38,806 bases of DNA, taken from contig JAHFDP010000041.1 in NCBI GenBank assembly GCA_023248955.1, forward strand, positions 1-38,806, read 5' to 3'. Position numbers and translations under genes: made by a program. The notes under the pieces are model-generated. The model was not told the DNA's origin and made no database searches. It worked only from the letters and a program-made list of their open reading frames with translations. Positions 17,643-37,924 of the stretch are shown in pieces (position 1 is the first letter of the stretch; the number at the start of each line of letters is the position of its first letter). Origin of the DNA: Deltaproteobacteria bacterium. GTDB taxonomy: Bacteria; Myxococcota; Myxococcia; Myxococcales; JAHFDP01.

Positions 17643-18872
17643 ATGCGCCACCTGATCCCATCGATTCCAATCGCGGCGCTGCTTGTTGCGGTGTTGCTCG
17701 CCGCGGCGCAGGCCAACGCGGCGCGCACCGCGCTGGACAGTCGATTCACCCTCGGCGGCGCTTACGACTCCAACGTGCTCTTGTCGGGAGACGGCGGCGA
17801 TCTCATCGCGAGCGTGACACCCGATCTGATGTTGACGGTTCGCGGGGAACGCGTTGCCGGCGATATCGACTATACCGGCGATCTTCTCTGGTACGGCGGA
17901 CGCGGCGCTCGGGTGCTCGATCACGATCTGCACCTGCTTGGGCAGGTGTGGGGAACACCGCGGTTGCTGGTGCGGTGGGACGCGCGCGGACGTTACGCTA
18001 GCGACGAACTGGCGCTTGCGCGGTGGGGGTTCTTGCGCCCACAAAGTGCGGCGGCCCTTGGTGATGGCGAATTCGGCATCACGTTTCGTTTCACGCCGAC
18101 CGACGAGCTCTTCGCTGGCGTTCGCGAGGACGCGCTCGTTTTCGTTCCCGAAGATGGCACCTCGACCATCCGACTTTCTCCCTACAACGGCTGGTTCAAA
18201 TCGCTGGACCCGCGTGACGTGCTGGGCGTTGTCGGCCGCGCGCAGCTCTTCATGCTCGCGTCAACCAGCGTCATCGGCACTGGGCTCGGCCTCTCTGCCG
18301 AGTGGAAACGGCGGGTGAGTGAGCACGTTGATCTCGATCTGCTGCTTGGACCGCAAATGTACGACGAGGGGCATCACGCTTTTTTTCTCCCACGCGCTTC
18401 CGCCGCCATTGAGATCGCGTGGCGTGAAAGCCGCGGGCTGCATGCCGATCTGATCCACGACTTGGTCATCGGCGCCAATCATGCTGGTGCGCTGGTGGGC
18501 GACATCGCGGAGGGCGGCGGCTTTTGGTGGCTTACGCCGTCGCTCCGTCTCTCCGGCCGCGTTGGTTATTACGGCAATAGCAGCGTCTCCAACCCGGCCG
18601 AGGGGTGGGAGGCGCCAGCTTGGCTGGCAACGGGTGGAGCGAGAGGGCGCGGAGCAGTGGAGGAGGCGCCAGCTTTGCTGGCAACGGGCGGAGCGCGAAG
18701 GCGCGGAGCAATGGTCGATGGTTACGTTGTCGAGGCGCGCGGTGAATACGCGCTGACACATGGATTTTTTTTCGGCGTTGGCGCGACGCGTGTTTCTGGA
18801 TTCGGCGCCGCCGCGCTCGAGCGAAATCTCGTGAATGCGAATGTTGGCTGGTCGTCCACTCGTCGTCGCTAG
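17643..18872 (+). CDS. Outer-membrane beta-barrel protein of the EPS export system
   Basis: This 409-aa protein has a signal peptide (MRHLIPSIPIAALLVAVLLAAAQANA), then alternating amphipathic strands rich in Tyr, Trp and Gly, starting FTLGGAYDSNVLL, as in barrel proteins of EPS loci. It ends in strand-like NVGWSSTRRR. No enzymatic motif is seen. Such barrels are thought to provide the outer-membrane pore for short OPX proteins; that role here is inferred from position. ATG 17643 is preferred over TTG 17610 because it starts the signal peptide. Residues about 323-358 are two copies of an 18-residue repeat (APAWLATGGARGRGA, APALLATGGARRRGA) encoded by a tandem DNA element at 18608-18715. They look like an insertion in an extra-membrane loop. 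Confidence 0.75.
   Translation: MRHLIPSIPIAALLVAVLLAAAQANAARTALDSRFTLGGAYDSNVLLSGDGGDLIASVTPDLMLTVRGERVAGDIDYTGDLLWYGGRGARVLDHDLHLLGQVWGTPRLLVRWDARGRYASDELALARWGFLRPQSAAALGDGEFGITFRFTPTDELFAGVREDALVFVPEDGTSTIRLSPYNGWFKSLDPRDVLGVVGRAQLFMLASTSVIGTGLGLSAEWKRRVSEHVDLDLLLGPQMYDEGHHAFFLPRASAAIEIAWRESRGLHADLIHDLVIGANHAGALVGDIAEGGGFWWLTPSLRLSGRVGYYGNSSVSNPAEGWEAPAWLATGGARGRGAVEEAPALLATGGARRRGAMVDGYVVEARGEYALTHGFFFGVGATRVSGFGAAALERNLVNANVGWSSTRRR
18608..18715 (+). repeat. Tandem pair of GGAG-hairpin repeat elements, 54-bp period, inside a gene
   Basis: Unit A is 18608-18661 and unit B is 18662-18715, with 48 of 54 bases identical. Each begins GGAG, then GC, then a perfect 6-bp hairpin GCCAGC-TTK-GCTGGC (K is G in A, T in B). 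The 3' half in unit B contains GGAG-CGCG-AAGG-CGCG-GAG. The period of 18 codons keeps the gene in frame. Single-base changes fall mainly outside the first stem. Related copies occur at 20702-20734 (same strand) and 30343-30392 (opposite strand). Confidence 0.85.
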
Positions 18873-18894
18873 AGCTCCATGAAGGGAGAACGTG

Positions 18895-20259
18895 ATGGAT
18901 CGCGCGTACACCGTTTTCGAAATGTTGGCCGTGGTGCGGCGCCGCTTGCGGCTGATGGCCGCGACGGCGGCGATGGTGATCGCGGGCGCGGCGGTGGTAA
19001 TCGCGGCGTTGCCCACAGAGTACCGCGTGGGTGCGGTAGTGCTCGCCGAGCCCAACCGGCCACACGCGGATCTGATCACGCCGGCGGTAACCTGGACTGT
19101 CGAAGATCGCGTGAAGTCCGTGCGCCAGCAGCTCCTGGCGCGCTCCACGCTCGAGCGGGTCATCACCGAACTCGATCTCTACCAGAGGGATCGCGCGCGC
19201 CATGGCGCGGATGCGGCGGTGGCGCTGTTGCGACGCCATCTCGAGATCAACGCGGACGGAGAGGGCGTGTTCAGCGTCTACTTTACATTCGACAATCCGC
19301 AGCAGGCCGCGCGCGTGGTCAACCGGTTGGCGGCGATTTTCATCGAGGACAATCTCGCGCTCCGCGAGCGACAGGCCTCGCGCACCAAATCGATCGTCAG
19401 CGTTGCGCTCAGCGAGATGCGCGATCAAGTGGAGCAGACGGAGCGGCGCATCGATGCGTTCAAACGCGCCCATGCCACCGAGCTGCCGGAAGCGGTGGAA
19501 GGAAATCTGCGCGAGCTGGATCGCCACAACAAGCTGGTGGAGATCGCGGAGACGTTCCGACGCGAAGCGGAACATCGACGCGCCATGATCGGTGTCGGCG
19601 AACCGGGCCACGACACCGAGGTTGGACGGCTCACCGCTTTGCGCGAAACCGCTGTGGCCAACGTGCGCGCGCTCTCGGCGCAATACACGGACGACTTCCC
19701 CGATGTGGCCGCGGCCCGGCGCGAGATGGCGGCGATCGAGGCAAGTCTCACTTCGGCACGCGCGCGTGCGGCACAAGACGATCTCGAGTTGCGGCGCATG
19801 AATTCAGAGGTGCGCAAGAGCGAAGACGACATCGTGAACCACCAGAAGCAGATGGGTTTCATTCAAGCGCACGTTGACGCCGCGCCGAAATGGGGCGCGT
19901 CACTTTCCGTGCTTACGCGTGAGCAGGAAGTTCTCAGGGCGAAGTATGGACAACTCCTCTCCAAGCAGGTGGAGGCCGAGGTCGCGCTTGAGCTCGAGCG
20001 CAAATCGGACGCGGCAAGTTACCGCCTGATCGACGCGGCGAAGGTTCCCGATGCGCCGTCGGGACCGGATCGCGCGCACGATTTCACGCTGGCGTTTCTC
20101 GCGGCGCTCGTGCTCGCGGGTGTGGTGGCCTTTGCCGTGGATGCACGCGACACGAGTTTGCGGAGCAGTGGAGAAGCGGCGGCGGCGGCGCGGCTTCCCG
20201 TGTTGGCCTTGGTGCCCAGCATGGATCACGTCGTCGCTCGCGGACCGAGCGGATCGTGA
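18895..20259 (+). CDS. Polysaccharide co-polymerase (Wzz/GNVR-type chain-length determinant)
   Basis: This 454-aa protein has two membrane spans, LMAATAAMVIAGAAVVIAAL near residue 22-41 and DFTLAFLAALVLAGVVAFAV near residue 400-420. They enclose a long periplasmic region rich in heptad-like helices (about 150-345), such as RDQVEQTERRIDAFKRAHA and LTREQEVLRAKYGQLLSKQ. The first span is preceded by VRRRLRL, and the domain after it resembles the Wzz family. These proteins set polymer length and connect to the outer-membrane exporter and the tyrosine kinase. The cytoplasmic C-terminus is short and carries no kinase, which is encoded separately next door. ATG 18895 has AGGGAG about 6 nt upstream; GTG 18892 is a possible alternative. 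Confidence 0.88.
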   Translation: MDRAYTVFEMLAVVRRRLRLMAATAAMVIAGAAVVIAALPTEYRVGAVVLAEPNRPHADLITPAVTWTVEDRVKSVRQQLLARSTLERVITELDLYQRDRARHGADAAVALLRRHLEINADGEGVFSVYFTFDNPQQAARVVNRLAAIFIEDNLALRERQASRTKSIVSVALSEMRDQVEQTERRIDAFKRAHATELPEAVEGNLRELDRHNKLVEIAETFRREAEHRRAMIGVGEPGHDTEVGRLTALRETAVANVRALSAQYTDDFPDVAAARREMAAIEASLTSARARAAQDDLELRRMNSEVRKSEDDIVNHQKQMGFIQAHVDAAPKWGASLSVLTREQEVLRAKYGQLLSKQVEAEVALELERKSDAASYRLIDAAKVPDAPSGPDRAHDFTLAFLAALVLAGVVAFAVDARDTSLRSSGEAAAAARLPVLALVPSMDHVVARGPSGS

Positions 20260-20293
20260 CCATCTTTTGTCCCCGCACTTCTTAGGAGCGAAC

Positions 20294-21073
20294 ATGGGCG
20301 AAAAAGCTGTAGTGGGTCGGGCCTCATTTCTGGAGCGGATCGACGGCAATGGGCGCGGGTTGGCGCTGGACGCAACGTGCGTTGCGGTGACCGATTCAGC
20401 GAGCGCGACGGCGGAACAATTTCGCGTGCTCTACCACCGACTGGCGCGCATGCGAGCGTCGGAAACGCTTCCCGTCATTGCGATCACCAGCGCCATGCAC
20501 GGAGAGGGGAAGACCTTCACCGCGGTGAACCTCGCACTGACCGCGGCACGCGCGAACCGCGACCGGCGCGTGGCGCTCATCGATTGCGATCTTCGCCGCC
20601 CGAGTGTCGGCGCGCTGTTGGGACTCGTGGGCCACACCGGGCTGGCACAGGTTCTCGCCGGCCGAGCGGAACTTGAAGTTGCCATGAGCACAGTTGAGGA
20701 CCTGGCGACGGGCGTAGCGCGAAGGCGCGGAGCATCCAACAGTGCGCTGACGGTGATCGCTGCGGGCGAACTCGCTGGTGAAGGCAGCGCAGCGCTGCTT
20801 AGCTCGCGTCGCATGACGCTCTTCCTCGAAGACTTGCGTGGATCGTTCGACGAGATCTACCTCGACGCGCCGCCAGCGATTGGCAACGCCGACGGGCCGA
20901 TCGTCTGCGCCCAAGCGGACGCAACGCTGATGGTGGTGCGCGCGAACGACACGCAGCGTGAGTCGGTGATGCAAGCGCTCGACTCGTTGGGCGGCGTGGC
21001 CGTGGTGGGGTTGGTTCTCAATCGCGTCGAGCTACGGTCGGTTCCGCGGCGCGCGTTGGGCAACGGTCGCTAG
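20294..21073 (+). CDS. CpsD/CapB-type bacterial tyrosine kinase-like ATPase
   Basis: This 259-aa protein is a P-loop protein of the BY-kinase/ParA superfamily. Walker A is HGEGKTF at residues 69-75, Walker A' is ALIDCDLRRPS near 95, and Walker B is EIYLDAPPAI near 190. It would be the cytoplasmic partner of the co-polymerase gene just upstream. The C-terminus (VELRSVPRRALGNGR) has no tyrosine cluster, unlike typical autophosphorylating kinases, so it may control export by ATP cycling or phosphorylate other proteins. Residues about 137-147 (LATGVARRRGA) match the repeat-encoded peptide in the beta-barrel gene and sit in a loop before LTVIAAGE. ATG 20294 is chosen for AGGAG at 20284-20288; a longer frame from 20051 is an overlap artefact. 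Confidence 0.87.
   Translation: MGEKAVVGRASFLERIDGNGRGLALDATCVAVTDSASATAEQFRVLYHRLARMRASETLPVIAITSAMHGEGKTFTAVNLALTAARANRDRRVALIDCDLRRPSVGALLGLVGHTGLAQVLAGRAELEVAMSTVEDLATGVARRRGASNSALTVIAAGELAGEGSAALLSSRRMTLFLEDLRGSFDEIYLDAPPAIGNADGPIVCAQADATLMVVRANDTQRESVMQALDSLGGVAVVGLVLNRVELRSVPRRALGNGR
20702..20734 (+). repeat. Partial copy of the dispersed coding repeat in the tyrosine-kinase gene
   Basis: These 33 bases match 18678-18710 (unit B of the tandem pair) at 31 positions. They are in the same strand and the same reading frame, and encode LATGVARRRGA versus LATGGARRRGA. The GGAG foot and first hairpin are missing or degraded; only TTGAGGAC precedes it. It is best explained as the 3' part of an old insertion. 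Confidence 0.75.
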
Positions 21074-21088
21074 CGGCGTGGAGGCAAA

Positions 21089-22417
21089 ATGGTCAGCGTT
21101 TTCTCCCACTACTGCTCGCCGCGGCAGATCGGACTTTTTGCGCTCGAAGCATTTGCGCTGGCCGCAGCGATTTCGATCGCGCTTCTCCTCTCCGGCGCAC
21201 CCGTGCTCGTCGCGACGGTTGGCGCACCGCTGAGCGTTTTGTTGGGATTGTTTTACCTCGTGGATCTCTACGACCTTTCGCGCGCCGCAACAGAGGCGCG
21301 GAGTGGCCCGCGACTCCTCGTCGCGCTGGGAGCGTCCGCGGGCGCGTGCGGGGCCATGGCGCTGCTGCTTCGTCTCTCATTCCCGCCGGGCGCGCTGCTG
21401 GCGTCCTTTGGTGGTGCGTGCGGTGCGGCGTTGCTGGTGCGAACGGCGTGGGCCGCGGCGCAACCGGGACGCCTCGTTCGCTTGCTCGTTTTCGGCGCCG
21501 GTGCTCGGGCGCGCGAGTTGGCGCGTTCCATCACCAGCGGCGCCGGCAGCGAATATGAGATCGCCGGCTTCATCGGCGAGAACGACGCACAGGTTCTCAG
21601 CGGGGACAAGGATCTGCTCTCCCTCGCGCGCCGCGTTGGCGCGTCGATCGTTGTTGTGGCGCCGGACGATCGCCGCGGCAGTCCGGTCGAACAGCTCCTG
21701 CGTTGCCGCGCGTCGGGTGTTCAGGTGCTGGAGATGTCGACGTTCTCCGAACGCGCGCTGCGGCGGCTTCCCCTCGCGGTGTTGCGGCCCTCGGAGCTGG
21801 CGTTCCAAGATGGATTCGCGCAGTCGGTGCTGGCTGACTCGTTGCTCCGCATAGGCGACGTCGCGATGTCACTCATCATCCTCATTCTCTCCGCGCCGGC
21901 GCTCGCGCTGGTGAGCATCCTCATCAAACTCGATTCGCCGGGGCCACTCCTGTACCGGCAAGATCGCGTCGGGCAGGGCGGTCGTACGTTCGAAATCATC
22001 AAGCTGCGCACCATGTGTTGCGACGCCGAAGCCGGCACCGGCCCTGTCTGGGCGGGTGAGCGCGATGCACGCATGACTCGGCTCGGCGCGCTCTTGCGAA
22101 AATGTCGTGTCGACGAAATTCCGCAAGTTTGGTGTGTCTTGCGCGGCGACATGTCCTTCGTGGGTCCGCGACCGGAGCGGCCCTTCTTCGTCGATCAGCT
22201 CGCGCGGCAGATTCCTTTTTACCGTCTGCGCGAAGCGGTCAAACCAGGCATCACCGGCTGGGCACAGATTCGCTACCCCTACGGCGCCAGCATCGAAGAC
22301 GCGCGCGCCAAGTTGGAGTTCGATCTTTATTACATGAAGCACCGCTCCCTTTTTCTCAACCTGCTGGTCATCTTCCACACCGGCAAGACGGTGCTCTTCG
22401 GAAAGGGTGCGCGATGA
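21089..22417 (+). CDS. Initiating sugar-phosphate transferase (polyprenyl glycosylphosphotransferase)
   Basis: This 442-aa protein has four or five N-terminal spans (about 15-130), a Rossmann-like CoA_binding_3 segment (LVFGAGARARELARSI near residue 133), another span near 250, and the cytoplasmic bacterial sugar transferase domain. That domain has DSPGPLLYRQDRVGQGG, FEIIKLRTM, DEIPQVWCVLRGDMSFVGPRPERP and KPGITGWAQI, all hallmarks of the WcaJ/WbaP family. It transfers a sugar-1-phosphate to undecaprenyl phosphate to start each repeat unit at the inner membrane; the sugar is not predictable. The arrangement resembles the EpsB-type transferases of exosortase-associated EPS clusters. ATG 21089 has GGAGG at 21080-21084. 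The stop overlaps the next gene by 4 bp. Confidence 0.93.
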   Translation: MVSVFSHYCSPRQIGLFALEAFALAAAISIALLLSGAPVLVATVGAPLSVLLGLFYLVDLYDLSRAATEARSGPRLLVALGASAGACGAMALLLRLSFPPGALLASFGGACGAALLVRTAWAAAQPGRLVRLLVFGAGARARELARSITSGAGSEYEIAGFIGENDAQVLSGDKDLLSLARRVGASIVVVAPDDRRGSPVEQLLRCRASGVQVLEMSTFSERALRRLPLAVLRPSELAFQDGFAQSVLADSLLRIGDVAMSLIILILSAPALALVSILIKLDSPGPLLYRQDRVGQGGRTFEIIKLRTMCCDAEAGTGPVWAGERDARMTRLGALLRKCRVDEIPQVWCVLRGDMSFVGPRPERPFFVDQLARQIPFYRLREAVKPGITGWAQIRYPYGASIEDARAKLEFDLYYMKHRSLFLNLLVIFHTGKTVLFGKGAR

Positions 22418-23643
22418 GAAGCGGACTTCAGACGTCGCGTGTCGCGCTTGTGCAAACGTCGCGCAACGACGCTGGCGCGCCGCGCATCGTGCCCGCGGAA
22501 GGAGGCGCGCTCCATTGCGCCGTGGAGGTGCGTGAAGGTCGCGAAGCTTTTGCTTCCGCGCAGAAAGCTTGGAACGGCGTGCTCGCCGAAGGACCGCGCC
22601 GCGATCCCTTTTTTCGTCACGAGTACCAGCGAATCTGGCTCGAGAACTTCGCGCCGTCCGCTTCACCGCTGACTTACCTCGTTCGCGCCGGCGGACGCGT
22701 TCGGTTGGCGGCGGCGCTGGTTCCGCAGCAGGGACGGGTGCTCGGCGTACCCGTGCGAATGTTGACGTTACCCGCGAACGACCATTCGAATCGCAGCGGA
22801 TTCGCGCTCGGCGAAGGCGATGCTGCACCAGCGCTGGCGGCGCTGTGGCAACGGGTGCGCGAGGCAACGTGGGATGTGCTTTTGCTGCGCGATCTTCCGG
22901 AAGGCGCACCGGAGCTCTCGGTGATTTCCAAGCTTGCCGCGGACGACGGCCATCCGACGGGAACCTGGTGCTCGCAGCGTTCGCCCTACGTTGCGCTGGA
23001 AGAATTCTCGCAAGGCTCAGGCACGGCCGCGGAGCGCGTTTTCGCCAAGCTGCCCGCGCACTTCCGCGCGAATCTGCGACGTCGCCGAAAAAAATTATCC
23101 ACGCATGGCGCCGTGGAGTTCGAACGCGCCGACGGATCACGTGACCTGGAAGCGCTGCTCGAAGAAGCGTTTCGTCTCGAAGCCTCGGGCTGGAAAGGGC
23201 GCGGCAAAACAGCGATCGCCACAGCCCCGCAGACGGTCGGATTTTATTCAGCGCTGGCACGTTGGGCGGCGCGTGAAAAAATGCTGTCGCTCTCGTTTCT
23301 CAAAGTCGGCGCCACGCGCGTGGCCTTTCACTTCGGGCTCATGAGCGATCGAAAATATTATATTCTAAAGTGCGGCTTCGACGAAGCCACCAGCGACTGC
23401 TCGCCCGGGCAACAACTGCTCGGCGACGTGTTGACCGACTGCGTGGATCGCAACTTATTGGAACTCGATTTTCTCGGCCCCAGCATGCCGTGGAAGCTCG
23501 ACTGGACCAGCACCGTGCGCGCCCACCGCTGGCTCACCATTTTTCGCCCCACGCCCATGGGCCGCGCATTGTGCGCGGCGAAATTTACGGTGGCGCCACT
23601 CGTGAAAGGCTGGACTCGTGGACATGCGCGCGTTGAACGTTGA
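22414..23643 (+). CDS. FemAB/CelD-like (Acetyltransf_6) acyltransferase, first copy
   Basis: This 409-aa protein has a GNAT-like fold of the Acetyltransf_6/CelD (BcsL) group. The diagnostic region is KYYILKCGFDEATSDCSPG around residue 310, then QQLLGDVLTDCVDRNLLELD and FLGPSMPWKLDW. A basic segment FRANLRRRRKKL near residue 220 precedes the domain, also typical. Members of this group occur in polysaccharide operons and are thought to transfer acyl or aminoacyl groups; the donor and acceptor here are unknown. ATG 22414 overlaps the transferase stop (ATGA), so a longer upstream frame is discarded. A second homologous gene lies at 24832-25992. Confidence 0.8.
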   Translation: MRSGLQTSRVALVQTSRNDAGAPRIVPAEGGALHCAVEVREGREAFASAQKAWNGVLAEGPRRDPFFRHEYQRIWLENFAPSASPLTYLVRAGGRVRLAAALVPQQGRVLGVPVRMLTLPANDHSNRSGFALGEGDAAPALAALWQRVREATWDVLLLRDLPEGAPELSVISKLAADDGHPTGTWCSQRSPYVALEEFSQGSGTAAERVFAKLPAHFRANLRRRRKKLSTHGAVEFERADGSRDLEALLEEAFRLEASGWKGRGKTAIATAPQTVGFYSALARWAAREKMLSLSFLKVGATRVAFHFGLMSDRKYYILKCGFDEATSDCSPGQQLLGDVLTDCVDRNLLELDFLGPSMPWKLDWTSTVRAHRWLTIFRPTPMGRALCAAKFTVAPLVKGWTRGHARVER

Positions 23644-24835
23644 TTCAGACTTCGTGCGCCGTGTCGCGCTGAAACCGGTTCCACAGGCGATCGGGGGGGC
23701 AACGCGTCTGATTCCGTCGTTGCCAACACTGTGGCCGCACATGCTGCTGCCCAACGCGAACGTGCGTGCCGAGTCGTTGCCGCCGCCGTTCGGAATTCGT
23801 TCCGCGCGCTACTGGTACTTCGCGCGCAATGCAGTGTGGCACGCGGCCAATCTTTTCGATTTGGCGGGCAGCGAGATGTTGATGCCGGCCTATTTTCACG
23901 GCGTCGAAGTGGACGCGCTTCGCGCGGCGGGTGTGCACCTTGTCTGGGTGCGCGTCGATCGGCGCATGCAACTCGATCTCGCCGATGCGCGCGCTAAGTG
24001 CACGCCGCGAACGCGCGCCATCTACGCGATTCACTACGCCGGTTTTCCGCAAGACCTCGACGGGCTCTCGGACCTTTGTCGCGAGCGCGGGCTTTTTCTC
24101 CTCGAGGATTGCGCGCTGTCGTTGTTGTCGTCGCACCGCGGACGTTGGCTGGGGACCGTTGGCGACGCGGCGATTTTTTGTCTCTACAAAACGTTGCCCG
24201 TCCCCAATGGTGGCGCGCTGGTGGTGAAAGATCGCGACCTAGCGTTCTTGTCGGCGTCGCATGCGCCGACGCTGCTCACGACTGCCTCGCACGCCGCATC
24301 ACAGTTGATGGCGAATCTCGAATTGCGCGCGGGCGCGTGGACGACGCCGTTGCGAACGGGCTTGCGCGAAGCGGCGCGTTGGATGGCGCGGCAGCGCGGT
24401 GCGGTGCGCGTGTCGACGGGAACGCAGCGGTTCGAGGTGGGCAACGCCGATCTCGGCATGAGCGCGCTCTCGGATCAGATCATCCGCGGACTCGATCTGG
24501 CCGCCATTGTTCAGCGCCGGCGCCGCAACTACCAGCGACTTGCCGCGGCGTTCGAGGGCTCTTCGTTCAACCGGGATCTTTCTGACGGCGTCTGTCCGCT
24601 CTTCGTTCCGCTGGAGACGCTCGACAAGTCGCGGGTACTGGCGCGGCTCTTGGCACGTGGCATTTCCGCCATCGATTTTTGGCGCACGCCGCATCCGCAC
24701 GGTCCGGCGCTCGGCACCTTTCCCGAAGTCGACGCGCTGCGCGAAACGGTGCTGGAGCTGCCGTGCCATCAGGATCTCGAGGACGAGGACATCGACCGGA
24801 TGATCGTCGAAGTGCGGGCGGCGGTGCGCGGATGA
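23618..24835 (+). CDS. DegT/DnrJ/EryC1-type PLP-dependent aminotransferase homologue
   Basis: This 405-aa protein has the fold-type I sugar aminotransferase pattern. A conserved acidic motif LLEDCALSLLSS near residue 165 would hold the PLP ring nitrogen. The lysine in IFCLYKTLPVPNGG near residue 190 lies seven residues before the Gly-Gly, as the Schiff-base lysine does in the DegT family. An early IRSARYWYFARNAVW segment replaces the usual family start. These enzymes aminate keto sugars or, in some lineages, act as dehydratases. The gene starts inside the preceding one; GTG 23618 has AAAGG about 10 nt upstream, and ATG 23624 is an alternative. It likely supplies an amino sugar for the EPS, or works with the flanking acyltransferases to install an acylated amino group. 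Confidence 0.82.
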   Translation: MDMRALNVDSDFVRRVALKPVPQAIGGATRLIPSLPTLWPHMLLPNANVRAESLPPPFGIRSARYWYFARNAVWHAANLFDLAGSEMLMPAYFHGVEVDALRAAGVHLVWVRVDRRMQLDLADARAKCTPRTRAIYAIHYAGFPQDLDGLSDLCRERGLFLLEDCALSLLSSHRGRWLGTVGDAAIFCLYKTLPVPNGGALVVKDRDLAFLSASHAPTLLTTASHAASQLMANLELRAGAWTTPLRTGLREAARWMARQRGAVRVSTGTQRFEVGNADLGMSALSDQIIRGLDLAAIVQRRRRNYQRLAAAFEGSSFNRDLSDGVCPLFVPLETLDKSRVLARLLARGISAIDFWRTPHPHGPALGTFPEVDALRETVLELPCHQDLEDEDIDRMIVEVRAAVRG

Positions 24836-25992
24836 AGGCGCTGCGTTTGACCGTCGTCGAGAACAGCTCCGCGCTCACGAAAGCAACGCCCGCGTGGGAG
24901 TCGCTGTGGGAGGAGAGCGCGGCGCTGAATTTTTTTCTGTCACCGACCTGGTGCCTCGCCTGGTGGCGCCACTTTGGTTCCGGTCGGCAGCTGCGCGTGG
25001 TGTGCGCCTACGAAGACGAGAAAATGGTTGGACTGTGGCCGCTCTTCGAGGAGCGCGTGTGGCGATCGGGTCTCTTGCTCAACCGGTGGGCGTTCCTCGG
25101 CGATGGTCCATCTGGTGCGGACTATCTCGACGCCCTAGCACCGACGGGAAAAGAGGCGGTCGTGGTCCGAGCGCTTGCCATGCATGTGCATGCAGGTAGC
25201 TGGGATCTTCTTGAGCTCGACGGAATCGACGGTGCCAGCCCGGCGCTCTCGACGTTGGCGGATCTCTTTCCCGCGGGTCCTTCGGCGGAGCGACAGCGCG
25301 TGTGCGAGCCACGGTTCGTCTGTCCGCACGTTCGTTGCGTTGGAACGTTCGATTCGTTTTTGGCAGCGTCGGGACGTGCGGAAAATTTGCGCCGCCGTGA
25401 GCGGTGGTTCGCGCCGCTGCCGGGCTTCCGTATCGAGGTGACCCAAGATCCGGCGGCGGTTCCTGTCGCGCTGGAGCACTTCTTCACGCTGCACGCAGCG
25501 CGCTGGTCCGCGGACGGCGGCTCCGACGGCATTCGTGGCGACGCGCTCCTTCGTTTTCATCGCGAAGTCGCCGACCGTCTCGCCGCGCGAGGCGAACTGC
25601 GGCTCTACACCCTCTTCTGCGCGGACCGCGCGTTGGCCAGCGTCTACGCCATCCACGCCGGCCGCAAACTTCTCTACTACCAGTCGGGGTACGATCCAGT
25701 TTGGCGCAACAAAAGCCCGGGACTGGTGCTGCTCGGCCGCGTGATGCGCGATGCCTTCGAATGGGGATGCACCGAGCTGGATTTTCTGCGCGGTTCGGAG
25801 CCCTACAAATTCGAGTGGGCGCAAGCGAGCCGACAGACCGTATGTTTCACCGTCCGGGCTTCGGCGCGTGCGCGATTGGCGGCACAGGGCGCGAGCGTGG
25901 GGCGTCTCCTCAGACGATCCACGCAACGTGTGTTGGGTGAACGCGCCGTTCACGCGGTGCGGACGTGGCGCCGCGCGGGAGAATCCTTGTGA
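24832..25992 (+). CDS. FemAB/CelD-like (Acetyltransf_6) acyltransferase, second copy
   Basis: This 386-aa protein belongs to the same Acetyltransf_6 group as 22414-23643 and carries the more canonical signature: KLLYYQSGYDPVWRNKSPG near residue 280, then VLLGRVMRDAFEWGCTELDF and LRGSEPYKFEWA. The N-terminal half has FFLSPTWCLAWWRHFG near residue 33, a conserved start of this family. It would acylate a sugar intermediate or a surface molecule in the cytoplasm. ATG 24832 overlaps the aminotransferase stop (ATGA), and the deacetylase gene starts at its own stop codon, so the three genes are tightly coupled. Confidence 0.82.
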   Translation: MKALRLTVVENSSALTKATPAWESLWEESAALNFFLSPTWCLAWWRHFGSGRQLRVVCAYEDEKMVGLWPLFEERVWRSGLLLNRWAFLGDGPSGADYLDALAPTGKEAVVVRALAMHVHAGSWDLLELDGIDGASPALSTLADLFPAGPSAERQRVCEPRFVCPHVRCVGTFDSFLAASGRAENLRRRERWFAPLPGFRIEVTQDPAAVPVALEHFFTLHAARWSADGGSDGIRGDALLRFHREVADRLAARGELRLYTLFCADRALASVYAIHAGRKLLYYQSGYDPVWRNKSPGLVLLGRVMRDAFEWGCTELDFLRGSEPYKFEWAQASRQTVCFTVRASARARLAAQGASVGRLLRRSTQRVLGERAVHAVRTWRRAGESL

Positions 25993-27110
25993 TCACACTG
26001 TCCACATCGTTGCGTCGCGCGGCGAAAGCGACGTTCGCCAAAATTCTAGAGCACACCGGCGCGCGGCCGCGACTGTCCCAATGGAGCCACGTTTCGGAGG
26101 ATGGCGTGCGTGTCCTAATCGTCAGCTACCACCGCATTGTTGCCGACTTTGCCACCGATGCGCCGACGGGCTTGTCCACCTTGATGACCAGCCGTGACAC
26201 GTTTCGGCGTCAGGTGCGTCAACTTTGCAACGCGTTCGAAGTTGTGTCGCTCGACACCGCGCTCGAGGTCCTCGCTGGCCGCCGCCGCGCCGCGCGCGAT
26301 CTCGCGGTCATCACGTTCGACGACGGCTACCGCGACAATTTCCAGCACGCCTATCCGGTGCTGCGTGAGGCAGCCGTTCCCGCGCATGTCTTTTTGCCGA
26401 CCGACTACATCGGCACGGAGCGCGCGCTGCCGCACGATCGCTTGTACCGCGCGTTGCAAATCTTGAATCGAGATCGCGGAGATTGGCGCGACCTTGGACT
26501 GGACGCGTCCGCGGTGACCGCGCTGGCCGAGGTGCAGGGCTTGAACGCGAACCGGCAGATCGATCGCTTGCTCGCCAAGCACCCGACGCCAAGGGTGGTG
26601 CGGATCACCGAACAGCTCGAGCGCCGCTTCGGACTGCTGCCGATCGAAGGAGTGCCGGACGGCGCGCGGCCGCTCTCGTGGGATCAGTGCCGGGAGATGC
26701 AAGCCCACGGCGTGGACTTCGGTGGTCATACCGCTGGTCATACCGTGCTCGTTCATGAATCGCCGGACGCGGTGGTGCGGGAGATCGGGCGCTGCAGCGA
26801 CGCGATCGCCGAGCATCTCGGCAGCGCGCCGCGCCACTTCGCCTATCCAAATGGGTACCACCATCCCGCCATCGTGAAGGCGCTTCGCGCGGCGCATTTT
26901 ATCTCGGCGGTCACCACGGAAGATCGTCCCAACCGGCCGGGCGCGGGCTCGTTTCGGTTGGGACGAAAAGTGTTGTGGGAGGATTTTTCACTCGGTGCGG
27001 GCGGCCGCTATTCCGACGCGTTGACCGCCTGTCACTTCGACGACGTCTTCGGAACGCTCGCGCTCAATCGCCCGGTGAGTGGGCTCGGCGGAATGAGCCC
27101 GAGCGACTAA
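25989..27110 (+). CDS. Polysaccharide deacetylase (NodB-homology, CE4)
   Basis: This 373-aa protein has the CE4 NodB motifs. Motif 1 is TFDDGYRDNF near residue 107, holding the catalytic base Asp and metal Asp. Motif 2 is HTAGH near residue 245, holding the metal histidines. Motif 3 is FAYPNGYH near 286. It probably removes N-acetyl groups from hexosamines in the polymer or an intermediate. The N-terminus is basic and has no clear signal peptide, so it may act in the cytoplasm or be poorly predicted. GTG 25989 is chosen: it overlaps the upstream stop (GTGA) and has GGGAG about 7 nt ahead. In-frame codons upstream to 25965 are less likely. The stop overlaps the flippase ATG. Confidence 0.88.
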   Translation: MITLSTSLRRAAKATFAKILEHTGARPRLSQWSHVSEDGVRVLIVSYHRIVADFATDAPTGLSTLMTSRDTFRRQVRQLCNAFEVVSLDTALEVLAGRRRAARDLAVITFDDGYRDNFQHAYPVLREAAVPAHVFLPTDYIGTERALPHDRLYRALQILNRDRGDWRDLGLDASAVTALAEVQGLNANRQIDRLLAKHPTPRVVRITEQLERRFGLLPIEGVPDGARPLSWDQCREMQAHGVDFGGHTAGHTVLVHESPDAVVREIGRCSDAIAEHLGSAPRHFAYPNGYHHPAIVKALRAAHFISAVTTEDRPNRPGAGSFRLGRKVLWEDFSLGAGGRYSDALTACHFDDVFGTLALNRPVSGLGGMSPSD

Positions 27111-28555
27111 TGCGCCCGCGTTCGCTCCTCTCGCAGGCCACGCCGCTCCTCGTCGGGCGAGGCTTCTCGGCGGCGTTGTCCTTCGCGCTTCCGCTGGTGC
27201 TTGCGCGACGCCTCGATGCCACGGGCTACGGCACGTACAAGCAGATTTTCTTGATCAGCAACACGGCCTTTTACCTCTTGCAATTAGGGATGGCGCAGTC
27301 GCTGTATTACTTTGTACCACGATCCGAAGACACCGAAACGCGCCGCACTTTTGTAGCGCAAACGTATCTTTTTCTGGCCGTGGCAGGCGCAGTGGCCGCG
27401 GTCGCCATGGTTTTTCTGGCCGGGCCTTTTGCCCGCGCCATGTCCAATCCCGAGCTCGTGCCGCTGGCGCCGCTGACAGCGCTCATGACCTGGCTCCTCA
27501 TCGCCACCGCGGCGCTCGAAATTCAGCTCACCGCCGAAGGACGTTTGGTCGCAGCGGGGCTCGCCTACGGCGTTCTCGATGCGGTGCGCGTGAGCTTCGC
27601 GCTGGTTCCGATTCTTTTCGGCGCGGGACTCTCCGGATTTCTGTGGGGCAGCATCGCGGCGTTGGCGATTCGCGCGGCGATCGGTGTCGGACTCGTGTGG
27701 CGCGGATCGTGGCCACAACTTTCGTGGCAACGTTTTCGCGATCAACTCGGCTACGCGCTTCCCTTCGGTGCAGCGATGTTGCTCTCCATTCCGCAACAGC
27801 AGTTCCACCAATACGCCGTGGGCTGGTCCGTCGATCCCGCCACGTTCGCGCTCTACACCGTCGGCTGCTTCCAAATCCCAATCGTCAACTTGCTTTACTC
27901 GCCGGTCTCCGATGTCTTGCAAGTGCGCTTGGCCAAGCTTGCGATCAGCGACAGTCGCGGAGCGTTGGCGTTGCTTCACGAAGCCGTCGATTGGCTCGCG
28001 TTCTTTTTCTTGCCCTTGAGCATCGGTCTCGTCGCGTCGGCGCCAGAACTGATTCCGGCGCTTTTCACCGATCGCTACGCCGCGGCGGTTCCGCTTTTTC
28101 GATTGGCTGTGTTGGCGGTTCCGCTAGCCGCGTTGCCGCTGGACGGCGTCCTCCGCGCACGCGGAAACACGCGCTACCTGTTCAGATTTTATTTCGCCAA
28201 GTTGGCGATCACTGTTCCGGCGGTGCTGCTTGGAATCCGCGTGGGTCTCCTCGGTGCGATCGCCGCAACGACTACCGTCGAAGTGTTCACGCGCATCATG
28301 ATGCTCGCACGCGTGCGGCATGATCTGAATTTGACCTGGCGCGAACTTCTTCCGTGGCGCAAGCTCACGACGCTTACTGGCTGGAGTGCGCTCTGTATTG
28401 GCGCCGTGTGGAGCGTGCGTATGCTGCCATCGATGTCCGCCATGCGAAGCGCGCTGCTCGAGTGTGGCGCGTACGGCGCGCTGTATCTCGGAGGATACGG
28501 TGCCTTCGGCCTGCTTCGCCGCCGCGAAATTTTCCGGCCCGCTACGGCTTCATGA
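27110..28555 (+). CDS. Wzx-like polysaccharide flippase (PST/MOP superfamily)
   Basis: This 481-aa integral membrane protein has about 12-14 hydrophobic segments, no large soluble domain, and a basic-rich C-terminus. The beginning (LLVGRGFSAALSFALPLVLARRLDATGYGTYKQIF) is the standard opening of PST/oligosaccharide flippases, with the conserved GYGTYK. It would move the lipid-linked repeat unit across the inner membrane. ATG 27110 overlaps the deacetylase stop (TAATG). It ends the tightly coupled gene block that begins at the initiating transferase. The matching Wzy polymerase is not present in the window. Confidence 0.9.
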   Translation: MRPRSLLSQATPLLVGRGFSAALSFALPLVLARRLDATGYGTYKQIFLISNTAFYLLQLGMAQSLYYFVPRSEDTETRRTFVAQTYLFLAVAGAVAAVAMVFLAGPFARAMSNPELVPLAPLTALMTWLLIATAALEIQLTAEGRLVAAGLAYGVLDAVRVSFALVPILFGAGLSGFLWGSIAALAIRAAIGVGLVWRGSWPQLSWQRFRDQLGYALPFGAAMLLSIPQQQFHQYAVGWSVDPATFALYTVGCFQIPIVNLLYSPVSDVLQVRLAKLAISDSRGALALLHEAVDWLAFFFLPLSIGLVASAPELIPALFTDRYAAAVPLFRLAVLAVPLAALPLDGVLRARGNTRYLFRFYFAKLAITVPAVLLGIRVGLLGAIAATTTVEVFTRIMMLARVRHDLNLTWRELLPWRKLTTLTGWSALCIGAVWSVRMLPSMSAMRSALLECGAYGALYLGGYGAFGLLRRREIFRPATAS

Positions 28556-28724
28556 TCCCGGCCAACTTCGCAGACATCCTTCTCCTACCGATTCGGATTG
28601 CGGCTCGCGGTGAACACCACGCTTGTTCGAGTCGTTTTCATTGGCTCTCCGAAAACCGCATGAAAAGGGCGAACCGTGACGCGAGGAAATTTTCTCGGCT
28701 GCCGTCGTGATGTAAAATGAAAAA
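28556..28724 (+). promoter_or_regulatory. Intergenic region with a candidate -10 element for the 64-aa gene
   Basis: This 169-bp gap after the flippase is more AT-rich than its neighbours. TAAAAT at 28713-28718 matches the TATAAT box at five of six positions and lies seven bases before ATG 28725, so a transcript would be nearly leaderless. A -35 box at the right spacing is poor (TTTTCT at 28690). No terminator hairpin with a T-run is present, so EPS transcription could read through. Confidence 0.35.
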
Positions 28725-28919
28725 ATGGATTCTGGGCCACATCGCGGCAGCGACGTTTTTGACCTCTACGACATCGGCGCGAAAATCATGCGCCAGAATC
28801 TTCGCCGCCGTTTTCTTTCCGAGACAGAGGAGCAGATCGAGAAGCGCCTGCACGCGTGGCTGCTCGAGCGACCGAGCGACGGTAACGGACCCGGTAAGAC
28901 GGTGACGTGGCCGCGGTAA
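28725..28919 (+). CDS. Small conserved-looking protein, 64 aa, possibly antitoxin-like
   Basis: The product is acidic at its start and then strongly amphipathic: DVFDLYDIGAKIMRQNLRRR, then ETEEQIEKRLHAWLLERP. The MRQNLRRR followed by a Glu-rich helix and a W-L-x-x-RP ending resembles, from memory, small proteins found beside nucleotidyltransferase-type (AbiEii-like) toxins in high-GC bacteria; I cannot verify this. No such partner is adjacent: the next gene is a lipoprotein and the previous one a flippase. An alternative frame from ATG 28717 (62 aa, beginning MKKWILGHIAAATFLTSTTSA) looks like a signal peptide but continues as Arg/Ser-rich sequence, so the 28725 frame is preferred. The call is tentative. 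Confidence 0.5.
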   Translation: MDSGPHRGSDVFDLYDIGAKIMRQNLRRRFLSETEEQIEKRLHAWLLERPSDGNGPGKTVTWPR

Positions 28920-28961
28920 ATCCAGTCGAGGAAACGCTTCGTCGCGCCCTGAGAGGAATGA

Positions 28962-30260
28962 ATGCCGCACGCTGAAGTTAGGGCTTCGCGACCATCTATT
29001 CTCGTTCTGATGCTTGCAGTTGCGGGCTGCTCGCGCGGGCAGCCTGGTGGGTCGGTCAATGGATTCGACGGTGGCCCGGATGCTGGACCCTCAGATGGCG
29101 GCAGGCCAAGCACGCCCCCACGGCTTTGCAAAGAGCCCGTCCTTCAACGGATGCCTGTGCCGGTCGAGTACGTCCATTTCATGGGGCAACTCGGAAGTCT
29201 GGTGCCACCCGATCACACTTTTCCAACGCCACACTTTTATTTTTATACTAAAAATCCCTTCGACGCGACGGACATCGAAGCGCCCGTTTTCGCGCCGGCG
29301 GACCTGGTGTTGGAGTACCTGGGCCTGCGCCACTACGCTCGGCTTCGAGGCGGAACCGCCGACTACACCGACTATTATTTGACGGCCCGCGTTTGCGACG
29401 ACGTCGACCTCTATTTCATTCACCTTCGTTCCATCACGGAACCATCCCTTGCCGCGCTCATCGACGCCCAACGTGCGCGGTGCGCCTGGCTCGCGGACGC
29501 AGGAAGCAATACGGGTGGCGGTACGGAGGAGCAGACCTGCGACGTCACGCTCCCCGGTGATCCCGTCCTGGTCCGCGCTGGTGAGCCCATCGGCACGGCG
29601 GGCGACATCCGTGGGGTCGGAGGGCTCGACATGGGGCTCCACGACATGCGCGATAGAGATGGTCGCGATTTCGCGAAACCAGATCACATGTGCCCGACTG
29701 GATACGGAGCGCCCATTCATCCGCAGTGCTACGCAGAATGTCCCCTCGACTATGTGGATGAAATGTTGGCCGCTCCGTATCGCGCTCTGTTTGGCTACGG
29801 ACCCGATCAGCCTGCCCAAGTCGAGCCGCTTTGCGGAAAAGTGCATTGGGATATCGCCGGCACCGCGCAGGGTTATTGGTTTACGGCGACGCCCACCTTG
29901 GCCGGGGAAAGCGAACAGGACAAATTGTTCATGGCGCGCAGTCCGCTCACGGACGCGGTCTACGTGTTTTCAATGGACAACGCATTGGCTGGAGTTGCGG
30001 GCGGTCTGTACGGATTTGCGCCGCGCAACGGAGGGCAGGTGAATCGGAGGTTTGGGGAAATATCCGATCAGTCGGTCTATTGCTTCGAAGGTCCAGGCCA
30101 CGGAGAGGGCGCCGTGCTGCGTGGCTGGCAACCGTGGCCATTCGTGCTCGTTCTCGGATTTACGCCCGACGGAGTTCTCCAAATCCAAAAACAGGATCGT
30201 GAAGACTGTGGCAACGGTCCGTATGCGTTCTTGGAGAACCCAGCGAGGTTTACGCGCTGA
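28962..30260 (+). CDS. Secreted lipoprotein of unknown function
   Basis: This 432-aa protein has a lipoprotein signal with lipobox LAVAGC at about residue 22. A low-complexity linker (GGSVNGFDGGPDAGPSDGG) follows, typical of surface lipoproteins in Myxococcota. The mature part has an early VHFMGQLGSLVPPDHTFPTPHFYFY segment, several Cys residues that could form disulfides, and a late CGKVHWDIAGTAQGYWF segment. The Gly-x-Leu, Pro-x-x-H and GTAQG-x-WF features recall uncharacterised extracytoplasmic proteins with an M23-like beta fold, but the metal-binding pattern is not clear and no enzymatic activity is claimed. ATG 28962 has GAGAGGA about 4 nt upstream. It sits inside the EPS locus between the flippase and a glycosyltransferase, with its own gaps either side. 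Confidence 0.7.
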   Translation: MPHAEVRASRPSILVLMLAVAGCSRGQPGGSVNGFDGGPDAGPSDGGRPSTPPRLCKEPVLQRMPVPVEYVHFMGQLGSLVPPDHTFPTPHFYFYTKNPFDATDIEAPVFAPADLVLEYLGLRHYARLRGGTADYTDYYLTARVCDDVDLYFIHLRSITEPSLAALIDAQRARCAWLADAGSNTGGGTEEQTCDVTLPGDPVLVRAGEPIGTAGDIRGVGGLDMGLHDMRDRDGRDFAKPDHMCPTGYGAPIHPQCYAECPLDYVDEMLAAPYRALFGYGPDQPAQVEPLCGKVHWDIAGTAQGYWFTATPTLAGESEQDKLFMARSPLTDAVYVFSMDNALAGVAGGLYGFAPRNGGQVNRRFGEISDQSVYCFEGPGHGEGAVLRGWQPWPFVLVLGFTPDGVLQIQKQDREDCGNGPYAFLENPARFTR

Positions 30261-30321
30261 GTCTTCTTAATGCACTGGCAGCCAAGCAGTTCGGTGCCTA
30301 GTTTTCGCCACGGAGGATTCG

Positions 30322-31404
30322 ATGGCGGATGAAAGCGATTATCCACGGCTCCGCGCCTTCGCGCTCCGCCCGTCGCCAGCGAAGCTGCCTCCTTCGCGAA
30401 TCCTTCTCATTGCCGATTATCCGCCGCCCGCGGGTGGCGTCGCGGTTCACGCCGCCGGCTTGGCGCAAGCGATTCGCGAAGCGGGCGGAACGGTCGTGGT
30501 GCTCGACATTGGCAAAGGTCAGCTGCCGGCGGCCGACGTTTTGCCAGCGGGTGGGTACGCCCAATTTGGCGCAACCGTGGCGCGCCATGTACGTGCTGGC
30601 TTTCGTCTGCACCTGCACACCAGCGGTGCGAATTGGAAAAGTTGGGCGCTCGCCGAATTCGTCGCAGCGGCGCCGCACGGCCCCGCGCCGGTGGTGACGC
30701 TGCACTCTGGACTCTTACCGGCGTGGCTAACGGGACGCGTGCGCCGCTCGATCGCGCGACTCGCGTGTTCTGGCTTCGGTGCCGTGCTTTGCGTGAGCGA
30801 GCAGCTCGCCTCCGCGATCGTGCGGTGTGGCGTGGAGCCGAGATCGGTTCATGTGGTCACGCCGTTTGTCGGGTTTGTCGGCGCACCTGGCGCCGTTCCT
30901 CCTGCAGTCGCTCCGTTCGTCGCGAATCATGCGCTCGTGATCACCGCAGCGTTGGGACCTGGCGCGGAATACGCCGCGCCGCTCCTCGTGGAAGCGGTGC
31001 GCAAGCTGCGCGCGGAGGGTGTCGATGCGGCGCTCGTTGCCTACGGATCGGGCAGCCATTCACGTGCAATACAAAGTATTGCATTGTCGATCGGTAACGC
31101 CGCACTGCTTTTGGGTGCGGTCGATCGTCCCACCGCCATCGCGGTGATGAAGTCGGCGCAAATCTTTGTTCGGCCGACACTGGCGGATGGTGACGCGCTC
31201 AGCGTGCGCGAGGCTTTGTCGCTAGGTCGGACGGTAGTGGCGAGCGATGCCGTGTCGCGACCACCGGGCGTGATCTTGTTCAAGAGCGGCGATGCCACCG
31301 CGTTGGCGAGTGCGCTTCTCGTCGCGCATGTCACACCAGTCGTTGCGCAAATGCAGCCGGACGGCGCGGCCGAGGTGCTGCAGATCTACCGGGAGTGCGC
31401 TTAG
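30322..31404 (+). CDS. Glycosyltransferase, GT4/GT-B type, with repeat-derived N-terminus
   Basis: This 360-aa protein has a GT-B fold. The N-terminal Rossmann start is ILLIADYPPPAGGVAVHAAGLAQAI at about residue 26-50. The C-terminal donor-binding part has LLLGAVDRPTAIAVMKSAQIFVRPTLADGDALSVREALSLGRTVVASD (about 268-315), which contains the Glu-x7-Glu-like GT4 region although the first position is Asp. It would transfer a sugar in assembling the EPS repeat. ATG 30322 has GGAGG at 30312-30316, so residues 1-25 are made; residues about 8-24 (PRLRAFALRPSPAKLPP) come from an inverted copy of the dispersed element at 30343-30392. The previous gene ends 61 bp upstream and asparagine synthase starts directly after. 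Confidence 0.82.
   Translation: MADESDYPRLRAFALRPSPAKLPPSRILLIADYPPPAGGVAVHAAGLAQAIREAGGTVVVLDIGKGQLPAADVLPAGGYAQFGATVARHVRAGFRLHLHTSGANWKSWALAEFVAAAPHGPAPVVTLHSGLLPAWLTGRVRRSIARLACSGFGAVLCVSEQLASAIVRCGVEPRSVHVVTPFVGFVGAPGAVPPAVAPFVANHALVITAALGPGAEYAAPLLVEAVRKLRAEGVDAALVAYGSGSHSRAIQSIALSIGNAALLLGAVDRPTAIAVMKSAQIFVRPTLADGDALSVREALSLGRTVVASDAVSRPPGVILFKSGDATALASALLVAHVTPVVAQMQPDGAAEVLQIYRECA
30343..30392 (-). repeat. Inverted copy of the dispersed coding repeat at a glycosyltransferase N-terminus
   Basis: Read on the minus strand, these 50 bases align with unit B (18662-18714) at 46 positions, with one 3-bp gap (GCC missing) that preserves frame. The GGAG foot is present, the first hairpin is shortened to CAGC-TTC-GCTG, and the 26 bases of the 3' GGAG/CGCG portion are identical to unit B. 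The plus-strand gene reads through it, encoding a peptide different from that in the other copies. Confidence 0.85.
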
Positions 31405-33324: not shown

Positions 33325-34512
33325 ATGGTCGCTCGTAACGCCGCCGTTCGGCTGGAGTCCGCGCCGCCGCTGGTCGGTCGCGACATCGTCTGCTTCTCCA
33401 ACGACTGGCACGGCGATCCACTTTCGAAGACGCACTTGATGCGCATCCTGGCGCGCGACAACCGCGTGCTGTGGGTCAACTCGCTCGGGCTGCGCGGACC
33501 GCAAGCCACTGCGCGAGATGTGCGTCGAATCGCCGATCGGATTTCTCGCATCACGCAGGGTGTGCGCGAAGTGGAACCAAATCTTTTCGTCCTTTCGCCG
33601 CTCGCTTTGCCACCTTCGGAAACGCCGTTCATCGTCGCGGCCAACCGTGAAATCGTGGGTGCGCAGGTGCGCCTGGCCATGCGCTGGCTTCGTTTTTCGC
33701 ATCCGATCTCGTGGAGTTTCTTACCTTCGTCCGCGCCGATTTCCGGCGAGCTCGGAGAAGATCTCGTCATCTACCAGTGTGTCGACGAGTTCAGTGCCTT
33801 CGAGGGCACCGCGCGCCAAACGGTGCTGGCCCTGGAGGAGCGTCTGTGCCGCCGCGCCAACCTGGTCTTCGCCAGCGCGGAACGATTGGTGGAGACCAAG
33901 CGCTTGTGGAATCCGCGCACGTTTCTCGTCCTACACGGCACGGACTACGCTCACTTCTCTCGCGCGCTCGATCCGGAAACGCCGATGCCGCCTGAGCTGG
34001 CGCAGGTTCCAAAACCGGTGCTCGGTTTTTTCGGGCTGCTCGCCGAGTGGATCGATTGGCCGCTCGTTCGCTACGTGGCGGATCAATTCCCGCACGGCAC
34101 GGTGGTGTTGGTTGGTCAGCCCAAAGCAGATCTCAGCGCGCTCAAGGGTGCGCCGAACATTCGGATCCTCGGCCGCCGTCCCTATGCGCGGCTTCCGTCG
34201 TTCTGCAAAGCGTTCGACGTGGCGCTGCTCCCCTTTGCGGTGAATGAGCTCACACTTGCTTCCAATCCGCTGAAGGTGCGCGAGTATCTGGCGGCGGGGC
34301 TGCCCGTGGTTTCGACGCCGATCCCAGAGGTGGAATCGCTCGGGCTCTGCCACATCGCGCGGACGAAAGAGGAATTCGTGAACGCCATTCGTGCGGCGCT
34401 GGCCGCGGGCGGTGGACCCCAGCGCAAGATCGCGGAGTCCATTCGCCACGAAAGTTGGGAGGCGCGCGTGGAGGAGATTCGCGTCCGTCTGCGCGACCTC
34501 AGCCTCGCGTAA
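33325..34512 (+). CDS. Glycosyltransferase, GT-B type (TuaH-like)
   Basis: This 395-aa protein begins with IVCFSNDWHGDPLSKTHLMRILARDNRVLWVNSLGLR, a start I associate with TuaH-like and similar EPS-cluster glycosyltransferases. The C-terminal GT-B part contains LGFFGLLAEWIDWPLVRYVADQFP, VVLVGQPKADLSAL, LGRRPYARLPSFCKAFDVALLPF, and NPLKVREYLAAGLPVVSTPIPEVESL, where the Lys-x-x-Glu motif is typical of GT4 donor binding. It would add a sugar of the repeat unit in the cytoplasm. ATG 33325 has AAAGGA about 6 nt ahead. Together with 30322-31404 this makes only two glycosyltransferases in the window, so the repeat unit is either small or completed by genes elsewhere. Confidence 0.83.
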   Translation: MVARNAAVRLESAPPLVGRDIVCFSNDWHGDPLSKTHLMRILARDNRVLWVNSLGLRGPQATARDVRRIADRISRITQGVREVEPNLFVLSPLALPPSETPFIVAANREIVGAQVRLAMRWLRFSHPISWSFLPSSAPISGELGEDLVIYQCVDEFSAFEGTARQTVLALEERLCRRANLVFASAERLVETKRLWNPRTFLVLHGTDYAHFSRALDPETPMPPELAQVPKPVLGFFGLLAEWIDWPLVRYVADQFPHGTVVLVGQPKADLSALKGAPNIRILGRRPYARLPSFCKAFDVALLPFAVNELTLASNPLKVREYLAAGLPVVSTPIPEVESLGLCHIARTKEEFVNAIRAALAAGGGPQRKIAESIRHESWEARVEEIRVRLRDLSLA

Positions 34513-34515
34513 TAC

Positions 34516-37606: not shown

Positions 37607-37679
37607 GAGCCGCTAGCTCAACTGGTAGAGCAATGGCCTTTTAAGCCATTGGCTGGGGGTTCGAGTCCCCCGCGGCTCA
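37607..37679 (+). tRNA. tRNA-Lys (anticodon UUU)
   Basis: A full cloverleaf can be folded. The acceptor stem is GAGCCGC with GCGGCTC, the D stem is GCTC/GAGC, and the anticodon stem is ATGGC/GCCAT around loop CTTTTAA, so the anticodon is TTT. The T arm is GGGGG-TTCGAGT-CCCCC. The discriminator base is A, and CCA is not encoded. It would read AAA and AAG. Confidence 0.96.
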
Positions 37680-37848: not shown

Positions 37849-37924
37849 GTCCCTGTCGTCTAGAGGCCCAGGACACGGCCCTTTCAAGGCTGTAACCGGG
37901 GTTCGAATCCCCGCAGGGACGCCA
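37849..37924 (+). tRNA. tRNA-Glu (anticodon UUC), integration target
   Basis: The cloverleaf has acceptor stem GTCCCTG/CAGGGAC and anticodon loop CTTTCAA, so the anticodon is TTC (37883-37885). The T arm is CGGGG-TTCGAAT-CCCCG, the discriminator base is G, and CCA is encoded at 37922-37924. The 3' half overlaps the end of the integrase gene on the opposite strand. Confidence 0.96.
37884..37924. other. Probable attachment site (attL) at the 3' end of tRNA-Glu
   Basis: The segment from the anticodon loop to CCA is shared by tRNA-Glu and the last codons of the integrase, which reads GFEPRLQP then stop. The integrase stop codon is the complement of TCA at 37884-37886 in the anticodon loop. Tyrosine recombinases of integrated elements commonly use a tRNA 3' end as att core. 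The element should extend right, beyond the window, with a direct repeat of this segment at its far end. Confidence 0.65.

Follow-up and report, generated by a model that had tools for sequence, protein, structure and literature searches.

The window, by which we mean the whole stretch of 38,806 nucleotides analysed here, harbours four copies of a repeat of about 50–54 bp, all of them located inside open reading frames whose frame is preserved. The repeat noticed in the original prediction is real: a covariance model trained on 25 copies recovers the four with E values between 9e-16 and 2e-8. Copies, hairpins and host ORFs are arranged as follows.

17643-18872, plus strand: host ORF of copies 1 and 2, lying upstream of the EPS genes and predicted to encode an outer-membrane protein; inferred start
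18608-18661, plus strand: element copy 1, core 18608-18656 plus tail; E 1.4e-12
18662-18715, plus strand: element copy 2, core 18662-18710 plus tail; E 9e-16
18668-18682, plus strand: hairpin 1 of copy 2, GCCAGC-TTT-GCTGGC, based on folding and compensatory changes
18688-18709, plus strand: hairpin 2 of copy 2, GC-GGA-GCGC-GAAG-GCGC-GGA-GC, based on folding and compensatory changes
20294-21073, plus strand: host ORF of copy 3, BY-kinase/CpsD-like P-loop kinase
20695-20734, plus strand: element copy 3, about 9 nt of hairpin 1 gone, reads EDLATGVARRRGA; E 2e-8
30322-31404, plus strand: host ORF of copy 4, group 1/4 glycosyltransferase
30347-30395, minus strand: element copy 4, within the N-terminal coding region of its host gene and antisense to it; E 2.9e-14

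Copies 1 and 2 form a tandem pair with a period of 54 bp and are read in frame as EAPAWLATGGARGRGAVE and EAPALLATGGARRRGAM, respectively. The peptides contributed by the window copies with the host frame kept include EAPAWLATGGARGRGAVEEAPALLATGGARRRGA, EDLATGVARRRGA and, from the antisense copy, RLRAFALRPSPAKLPP. The tandem pair stands as first described, the inverted copy is now placed at 30347-30395, and what had been taken for a 33-bp partial copy is a whole element at 20695-20734 that has suffered an in-frame loss of about 9 nt within hairpin 1. When the kinase ORF is compared with VpsO and BceF, the insert of copy 3 appears as a 13-residue gap in a kinase loop, one of the places named in the original prediction as tolerant of extra residues. 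The ORF hosting copies 1 and 2 has no Pfam match. Rfam returns no match to the element within the window and recognizes only two tRNA genes, at 37607-37679 and 37849-37921, towards the right end.

Structure and distribution of the element

The unit is characterized by a core of about 49 nt (48–51 nt) with the arrangement GGAGGA-hairpin 1-GACGG-hairpin 2, followed by a short tail, and by a period of 53–57 bp. In this genome the core has the consensus GGAGGA-GCCAGC-TTC-GCTGGC-GACGG-GC-GGA-GCGC-GAAG-GCGC-GGA-GC-A. Hairpin 1 has a consensus stem of 6 bp (a GC stem of 6–7 bp) and a loop of 3 nt, and hairpin 2 contains a symmetric internal loop, GGA/GGA. Other subfamilies have the stem of hairpin 1 swapped for GGGC..GCCC or CGGC..GCCG and that of hairpin 2 for GGCC..GGCC or GCCC..GGGC. 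Each of positions 1–4, GGAG, is conserved in more than 90% of 61 distinct copies, and the GACG after hairpin 1 in 95–98%. The REP-like layout of GGAG followed by a palindrome is an apt description of the 5' half of the element, to which the second conserved hairpin, overlooked at first, must be added. The two ends, GGAGGA and GGAGCA, are not inverted, and the terminal inverted repeats that are a feature of MITEs are thus absent.

Both hairpins are maintained through compensatory changes: in 42 gap-free copies 98.2% of cells are paired and 43 cells show two-sided changes, a figure equalled by 0 of 500 shuffles, and sliding the stem partners lowers pairing to 29–50%. Wobble at pair 9-19 is one-sided (GT 15, AC 1), which points to the plus strand as the folded strand, with a possible contribution of shared descent. 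The folding energy of the single strand is by itself unremarkable (z about -0.9 to -2.0), so that the structural claim rests on covariation.

The family extends across the genome of this soil bacterium, one of the two possibilities raised at first. The 20-mer GGAGCGCGAAGGCGCGGAGC finds 39 matches with at most 3 mismatches in the 3.83-Mb genome and the reversed control 6, and the covariance model detects at least 41 copies at 19 sites, which are spread over 12 contigs and both strands and have unrelated flanks. Within the main subfamily, dispersed copies are mostly 84–98% identical. Nine relatives belonging to the same order contain 3 to 42 copies each by the covariance model and other relatives one or two, some of which are weak; in a survey of the phylum 14 of 195 genomes are positive, every one a member of that order. 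A scan of named genomes with a strict 26-base pattern matched only the soil Deltaproteobacteria MAGs DP_8 and DP_11, although this pattern is narrow and a wider presence of the element is still possible. No copies were found in the viral contigs and plasmids searched. Dispersal takes the form of lineage-specific subfamilies, and, with many subfamilies and sites that are empty within one genus, the family has apparently been active recently.

Copies also stand in head-to-tail arrays, in which matches recur at a spacing of 54 bp up to about ten times; one array is interrupted by a run of N, which leaves its size uncertain. In several arrays the linker between copies is identical to the tail that closes the array, and the right flank of these arrays opens with GGAG or GAGG, like the element itself (TCCAAA|GGAGG, ATGGAG, TAGGAGA and TCCGGTCGAGG). 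The pattern of linker and flank is less clear in the arrays on contigs C89, C57 and C52. Head-to-tail arrays fit local duplication at GGAG microhomology. One array of three copies (L034, G000:C80:33000-33155) is situated directly 3' of a putative tRNA gene, judged from its sequence.

Insertion inside genes and before start codons

Comparison with relatives bears out the expectation that orthologues would differ in the presence of the insert. The site G013:C74 lacks 54 nt in four aligned relatives and G018:C122 lacks 51 nt in four, with more absent in two others. At G035:C275, the 3' end of a gene labelled as membrane-fusion type from reading its translation, the aligned relatives have an empty site, and so does a paralogue that is 54 nt shorter. 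Insert lengths relative to the empty orthologous sites are exactly 51 or 54 nt, and the sites come from different species of one genus. The site G035:C282 is also occupied in G018 and G044, and hence some copies are inherited. The alignments indicate that copies move or, at the very least, arise by insertion. The sites share no clean target-site duplication: GGAGG flanks both ends at G013:C74 and G035:C275 but not at other sites, and at some the right junction is ATCGAG instead of GGAG.

Within genes the element adds about 18 residues to the reading frame, with predicted peptides such as EEPASLATGGAR, and the consensuses of four subfamilies are free of stop codons in all six frames. Besides the EPS genes, hosts in this genome encode RseP, an LptD_N protein (two copies), a RecD-like helicase and TPR proteins; in an acyl-CoA dehydrogenase gene the element lies just 5' of the conserved domain. 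In a sirtuin (Sir2) the copy adds 17 residues relative to CobB. In relatives the element occurs in genes for NuoC, TsaB and RecN and in a Y-family polymerase-like gene, RecN and the polymerase being named from reading their translations. So varied a range of hosts, from RseP and LptD_N to NuoC, Sir2 and RecN, speaks against the local role in the EPS locus that had been envisaged as one option. The heaviest intragenic load seen outside single arrays is that of a TPR-protein ORF (L031, G000:C35:3892-7293), with five element copies in three places.

Gene context, called with a simple and rough codon model, assigns 32 of 109 sites to the intragenic in-frame class, though some sites are orthologous and the site counts are not fully independent. 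These insertions are oriented 26 sense to 6 antisense (p=0.0005), and sense-frame usage is 16/9/1 (p=0.0015), the avoided frame being rich in Arg and Trp. The bias in orientation and frame fits survival of tolerated insertions, and provides indirect evidence that the insertions are probably translated. Annotators who meet repeated EEPASLATGGARRRGA-like segments in these genomes should regard them as insertions, not domains.

Outside genes, the 3' end of the element usually faces a start codon, a position that had escaped the original prediction, as had the mode of array formation. Where a same-strand gene lies 3' of the element and there is no in-frame coding 5' of it, an in-frame ATG or GTG occurs within 30 nt past the 3' end at 34 of 51 sites; the mirror-image case gives 11 of 24. 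GGAG, GAGG or AGGA is found upstream of the start in 26 of 27 hand-listed start-proximal sites, mostly 4–10 nt away. In 11 of the hand-listed sites this motif is the element's own terminal GGAG and in most of the remainder it comes immediately after the element, GCA-TAGGAGGAACGAC-GTG being an example. Taking all sites, GGAG is present within 16 nt to the right of the element in 44 of 109, as against 4–10 in other windows and 1 for the reverse complement. With GGAG at Shine–Dalgarno distance, the 3' end of the element can, on sequence grounds, act as a ribosome-binding site. The GGAG beside the 3' junction may reflect target choice, the tail of the element or selection, and placement before start codons could be explained by selection without any insertion preference.

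Relation to known palindromic repeats

The GTAG-1 REPs of Pseudomonas and other bacteria consist of a tetranucleotide tag, an unpaired GA, a short GC-rich stem, a tiny loop and a 3-nt tail (PMC3733652). The element shares their layout, GGAG-GA-stem(6)-loop(3)-stem-GAC, with support from covariation, and likewise has subfamilies generated via compensatory stem changes and some intragenic copies. It departs from them in its tag, GGAG instead of GTAG, and in a second conserved hairpin that is always attached. Whereas GTAG-1 REPs are RAYT-associated, occur in inverted pairs and lie downstream of genes, the element has no RAYT association, forms head-to-tail arrays and is often intragenic or placed before start codons. 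GTAG REPs in general measure 20–40 bp and are mainly extragenic inverted dimers, a description that the element, with its 48–51-nt core and 32 of 109 sites intragenic, does not match.

CGTC REPs, which include Rickettsia RPE-4 and RPE-6, are without a dedicated transposase (PMC3733652). As in this class, the minus strand of the element displays a nearly invariant CGTC against a palindrome (hairpin 1), there is no repeat-flanked transposase, and copies are found in frame inside genes. However, CGTC REPs have a stem of 8–9 bp with AT pairs at its base and a CCA tail, while on the minus strand the element has a GC stem of 6–7 bp, no AT base pairs and TCCTCC in place of the CCA tail; two hairpins and tandem arrays set it further apart. 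The element is placed in neither the GTAG nor the CGTC class, since it lacks defining features of both, among tag, tail, stem length, dimer type and RAYT.

The Rickettsia palindromic elements of Ogata and Claverie, as cited in PMC3733652, are palindromic DNA located in frame in unrelated protein genes. The resemblance to them that had been pointed out holds for in-frame insertion into unrelated, probably functional proteins and for absence from orthologues. The present element belongs to another phylum, has another sequence, is about 54 bp long and adds the placement before start codons; the sequence comparison with RPEs covers their CGTC tag. REPINs consist of two inverted REPs, lie in extragenic space and are accompanied by a RAYT (PMC3116915); the element is similarly very short, non-autonomous and palindromic, with some tandem clusters (PMC3116915), but its two hairpins differ from each other and are not inverted copies.

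Miniature elements derived from IS200/IS605 carry two subterminal hairpins and insert in fixed orientation at short motifs. The element has the two-hairpin form in common with them, yet no Y1 gene is found in the genome and its ends match no IS there. Our verdict is that the repeat is a new, clade-specific, REP/RPE-like translated palindromic element. To our knowledge, descriptions of short palindromic repeats that enter protein genes come mainly from Rickettsia and from a few genomes rich in REPs, and we know of no enzyme that moves the CGTC class. A separate family with a positional rule, before start codons and with an end usable as a ribosome-binding site, makes the movement of such elements, and the entry of new peptide segments into conserved proteins, directly testable.

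Mobility and competing explanations

The repeat probably represents a REP-like, non-autonomous mobile element about 50 nt long, recognized in the form of its folded plus strand with two hairpins. It would be moved by a trans-acting enzyme operating on single-stranded DNA, a guess that rests on the hairpins, and preferred insertion next to a Shine–Dalgarno-like GGAG(G) would leave GGAG beside the 3' junction. Since the element has GGAGG at its start and GGAG at its end, a gene whose ribosome-binding site is hit would still have a usable one, and many insertions would thus be tolerated. Inside genes, the survivors would be solely frame-keeping insertions with tolerated peptides. Arrays would then grow locally, by duplication between the 5' GGAGG of the element and the GGAG in its right flank. 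A more specific proposal, that the element is specialized for ribosome-binding sites, with fixed-orientation insertion beside GGAGG, a ready-made Shine–Dalgarno end, in-frame spill-over into coding sequence and a mover other than RAYT, is advanced tentatively.

Mobilization by a RAYT (Y1/HUH), as for a typical REP family and as first conjectured for this repeat, is unlikely. It would require that the enzyme is missing because the MAG, 95.6% complete, happens to lack the gene, or because it was recently lost. The GTAG-1 layout of the 5' half (tetranucleotide, unpaired GA, stem-loop and 3-nt tail; PMC3733652) and the Y1 genes carried by 37 of 60 relatives, many of them in family f7, are compatible with this idea. 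However, the tag is GGAG, not GTAG, head-to-tail arrays are rare among REPs (PMC3733652), and this genome has no match to Y1_Tnp or NF047646. Nor does the covariance model find a significant copy beside the Y1 genes in 22 locus records of relatives, a single weak match (E 0.024) having been rejected. Copy number does not track the number of Y1 genes, the present genome (G000) having none and at least 41 copies and G029 having 15 and two copies.

Family f7 genomes (loci L096-L107 in G026, G032, G029, G035 and G044) show up to 21 Y1 matches per genome, with MKQLAMKFRSWGGKRKGAGRKPKG as the typical N-terminus, and the Y1 loci read there are without an adjoining element. Among other candidate movers, IS110 (PF02371) has no match in this genome. 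The sole reverse transcriptase found is a 457-aa group II intron-like maturase (L248, G000:C11:21064-21681); no strong copy lies within 1.5 kb of it, and its presence is assumed to be a coincidence.

Less probable again is a cis-acting RNA leader, either a ribosome-binding-site module or a protein-binding 5' UTR hairpin, that selection favours before genes and that leaves intragenic copies as by-products. Such a leader would account for the compensatory stems, the G-U pairs tolerated on the plus strand (pair 9-19), the repeated GGA motifs and the strong pre-start-codon placement with GGAG at Shine–Dalgarno distance. It sits uneasily with the many copies that occupy conserved coding regions or the 3' ends of genes, the empty orthologous sites, the tandem arrays, the unrelated host functions and, within the window, the absence of any Rfam family matching the element. 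Local tandem or microsatellite-like duplication without dispersal, highly improbable, would explain the perfect arrays of 53–57-bp period but not the 19 sites with unrelated flanks on 12 contigs and both strands, nor the 84–98% identity of most dispersed main-subfamily copies. A conserved protein motif encoded by similar DNA, suggested by the preserved frame and recurrent EEPASLATGGARRRGA-like peptides, can practically be dismissed, given that at least two sense frames plus antisense frames are in use, hosts are unrelated, intergenic copies exist, the DNA stems covary and homologues (kinase, sirtuin) lack the insert; nor are the four window copies the only ones in the genome.

The window also contains a 28-bp inverted repeat, GTAATRCATGGNTGATCNAAAGTATTAC, at 2377-2404 and 34509-34536, over two ORF start codons (ATG at 2384 and 34516), with a diverged copy on the minus strand at 133-149. 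These two sites are its only close matches in the genome, and it is possibly a local operator or a product of duplicated gene starts.
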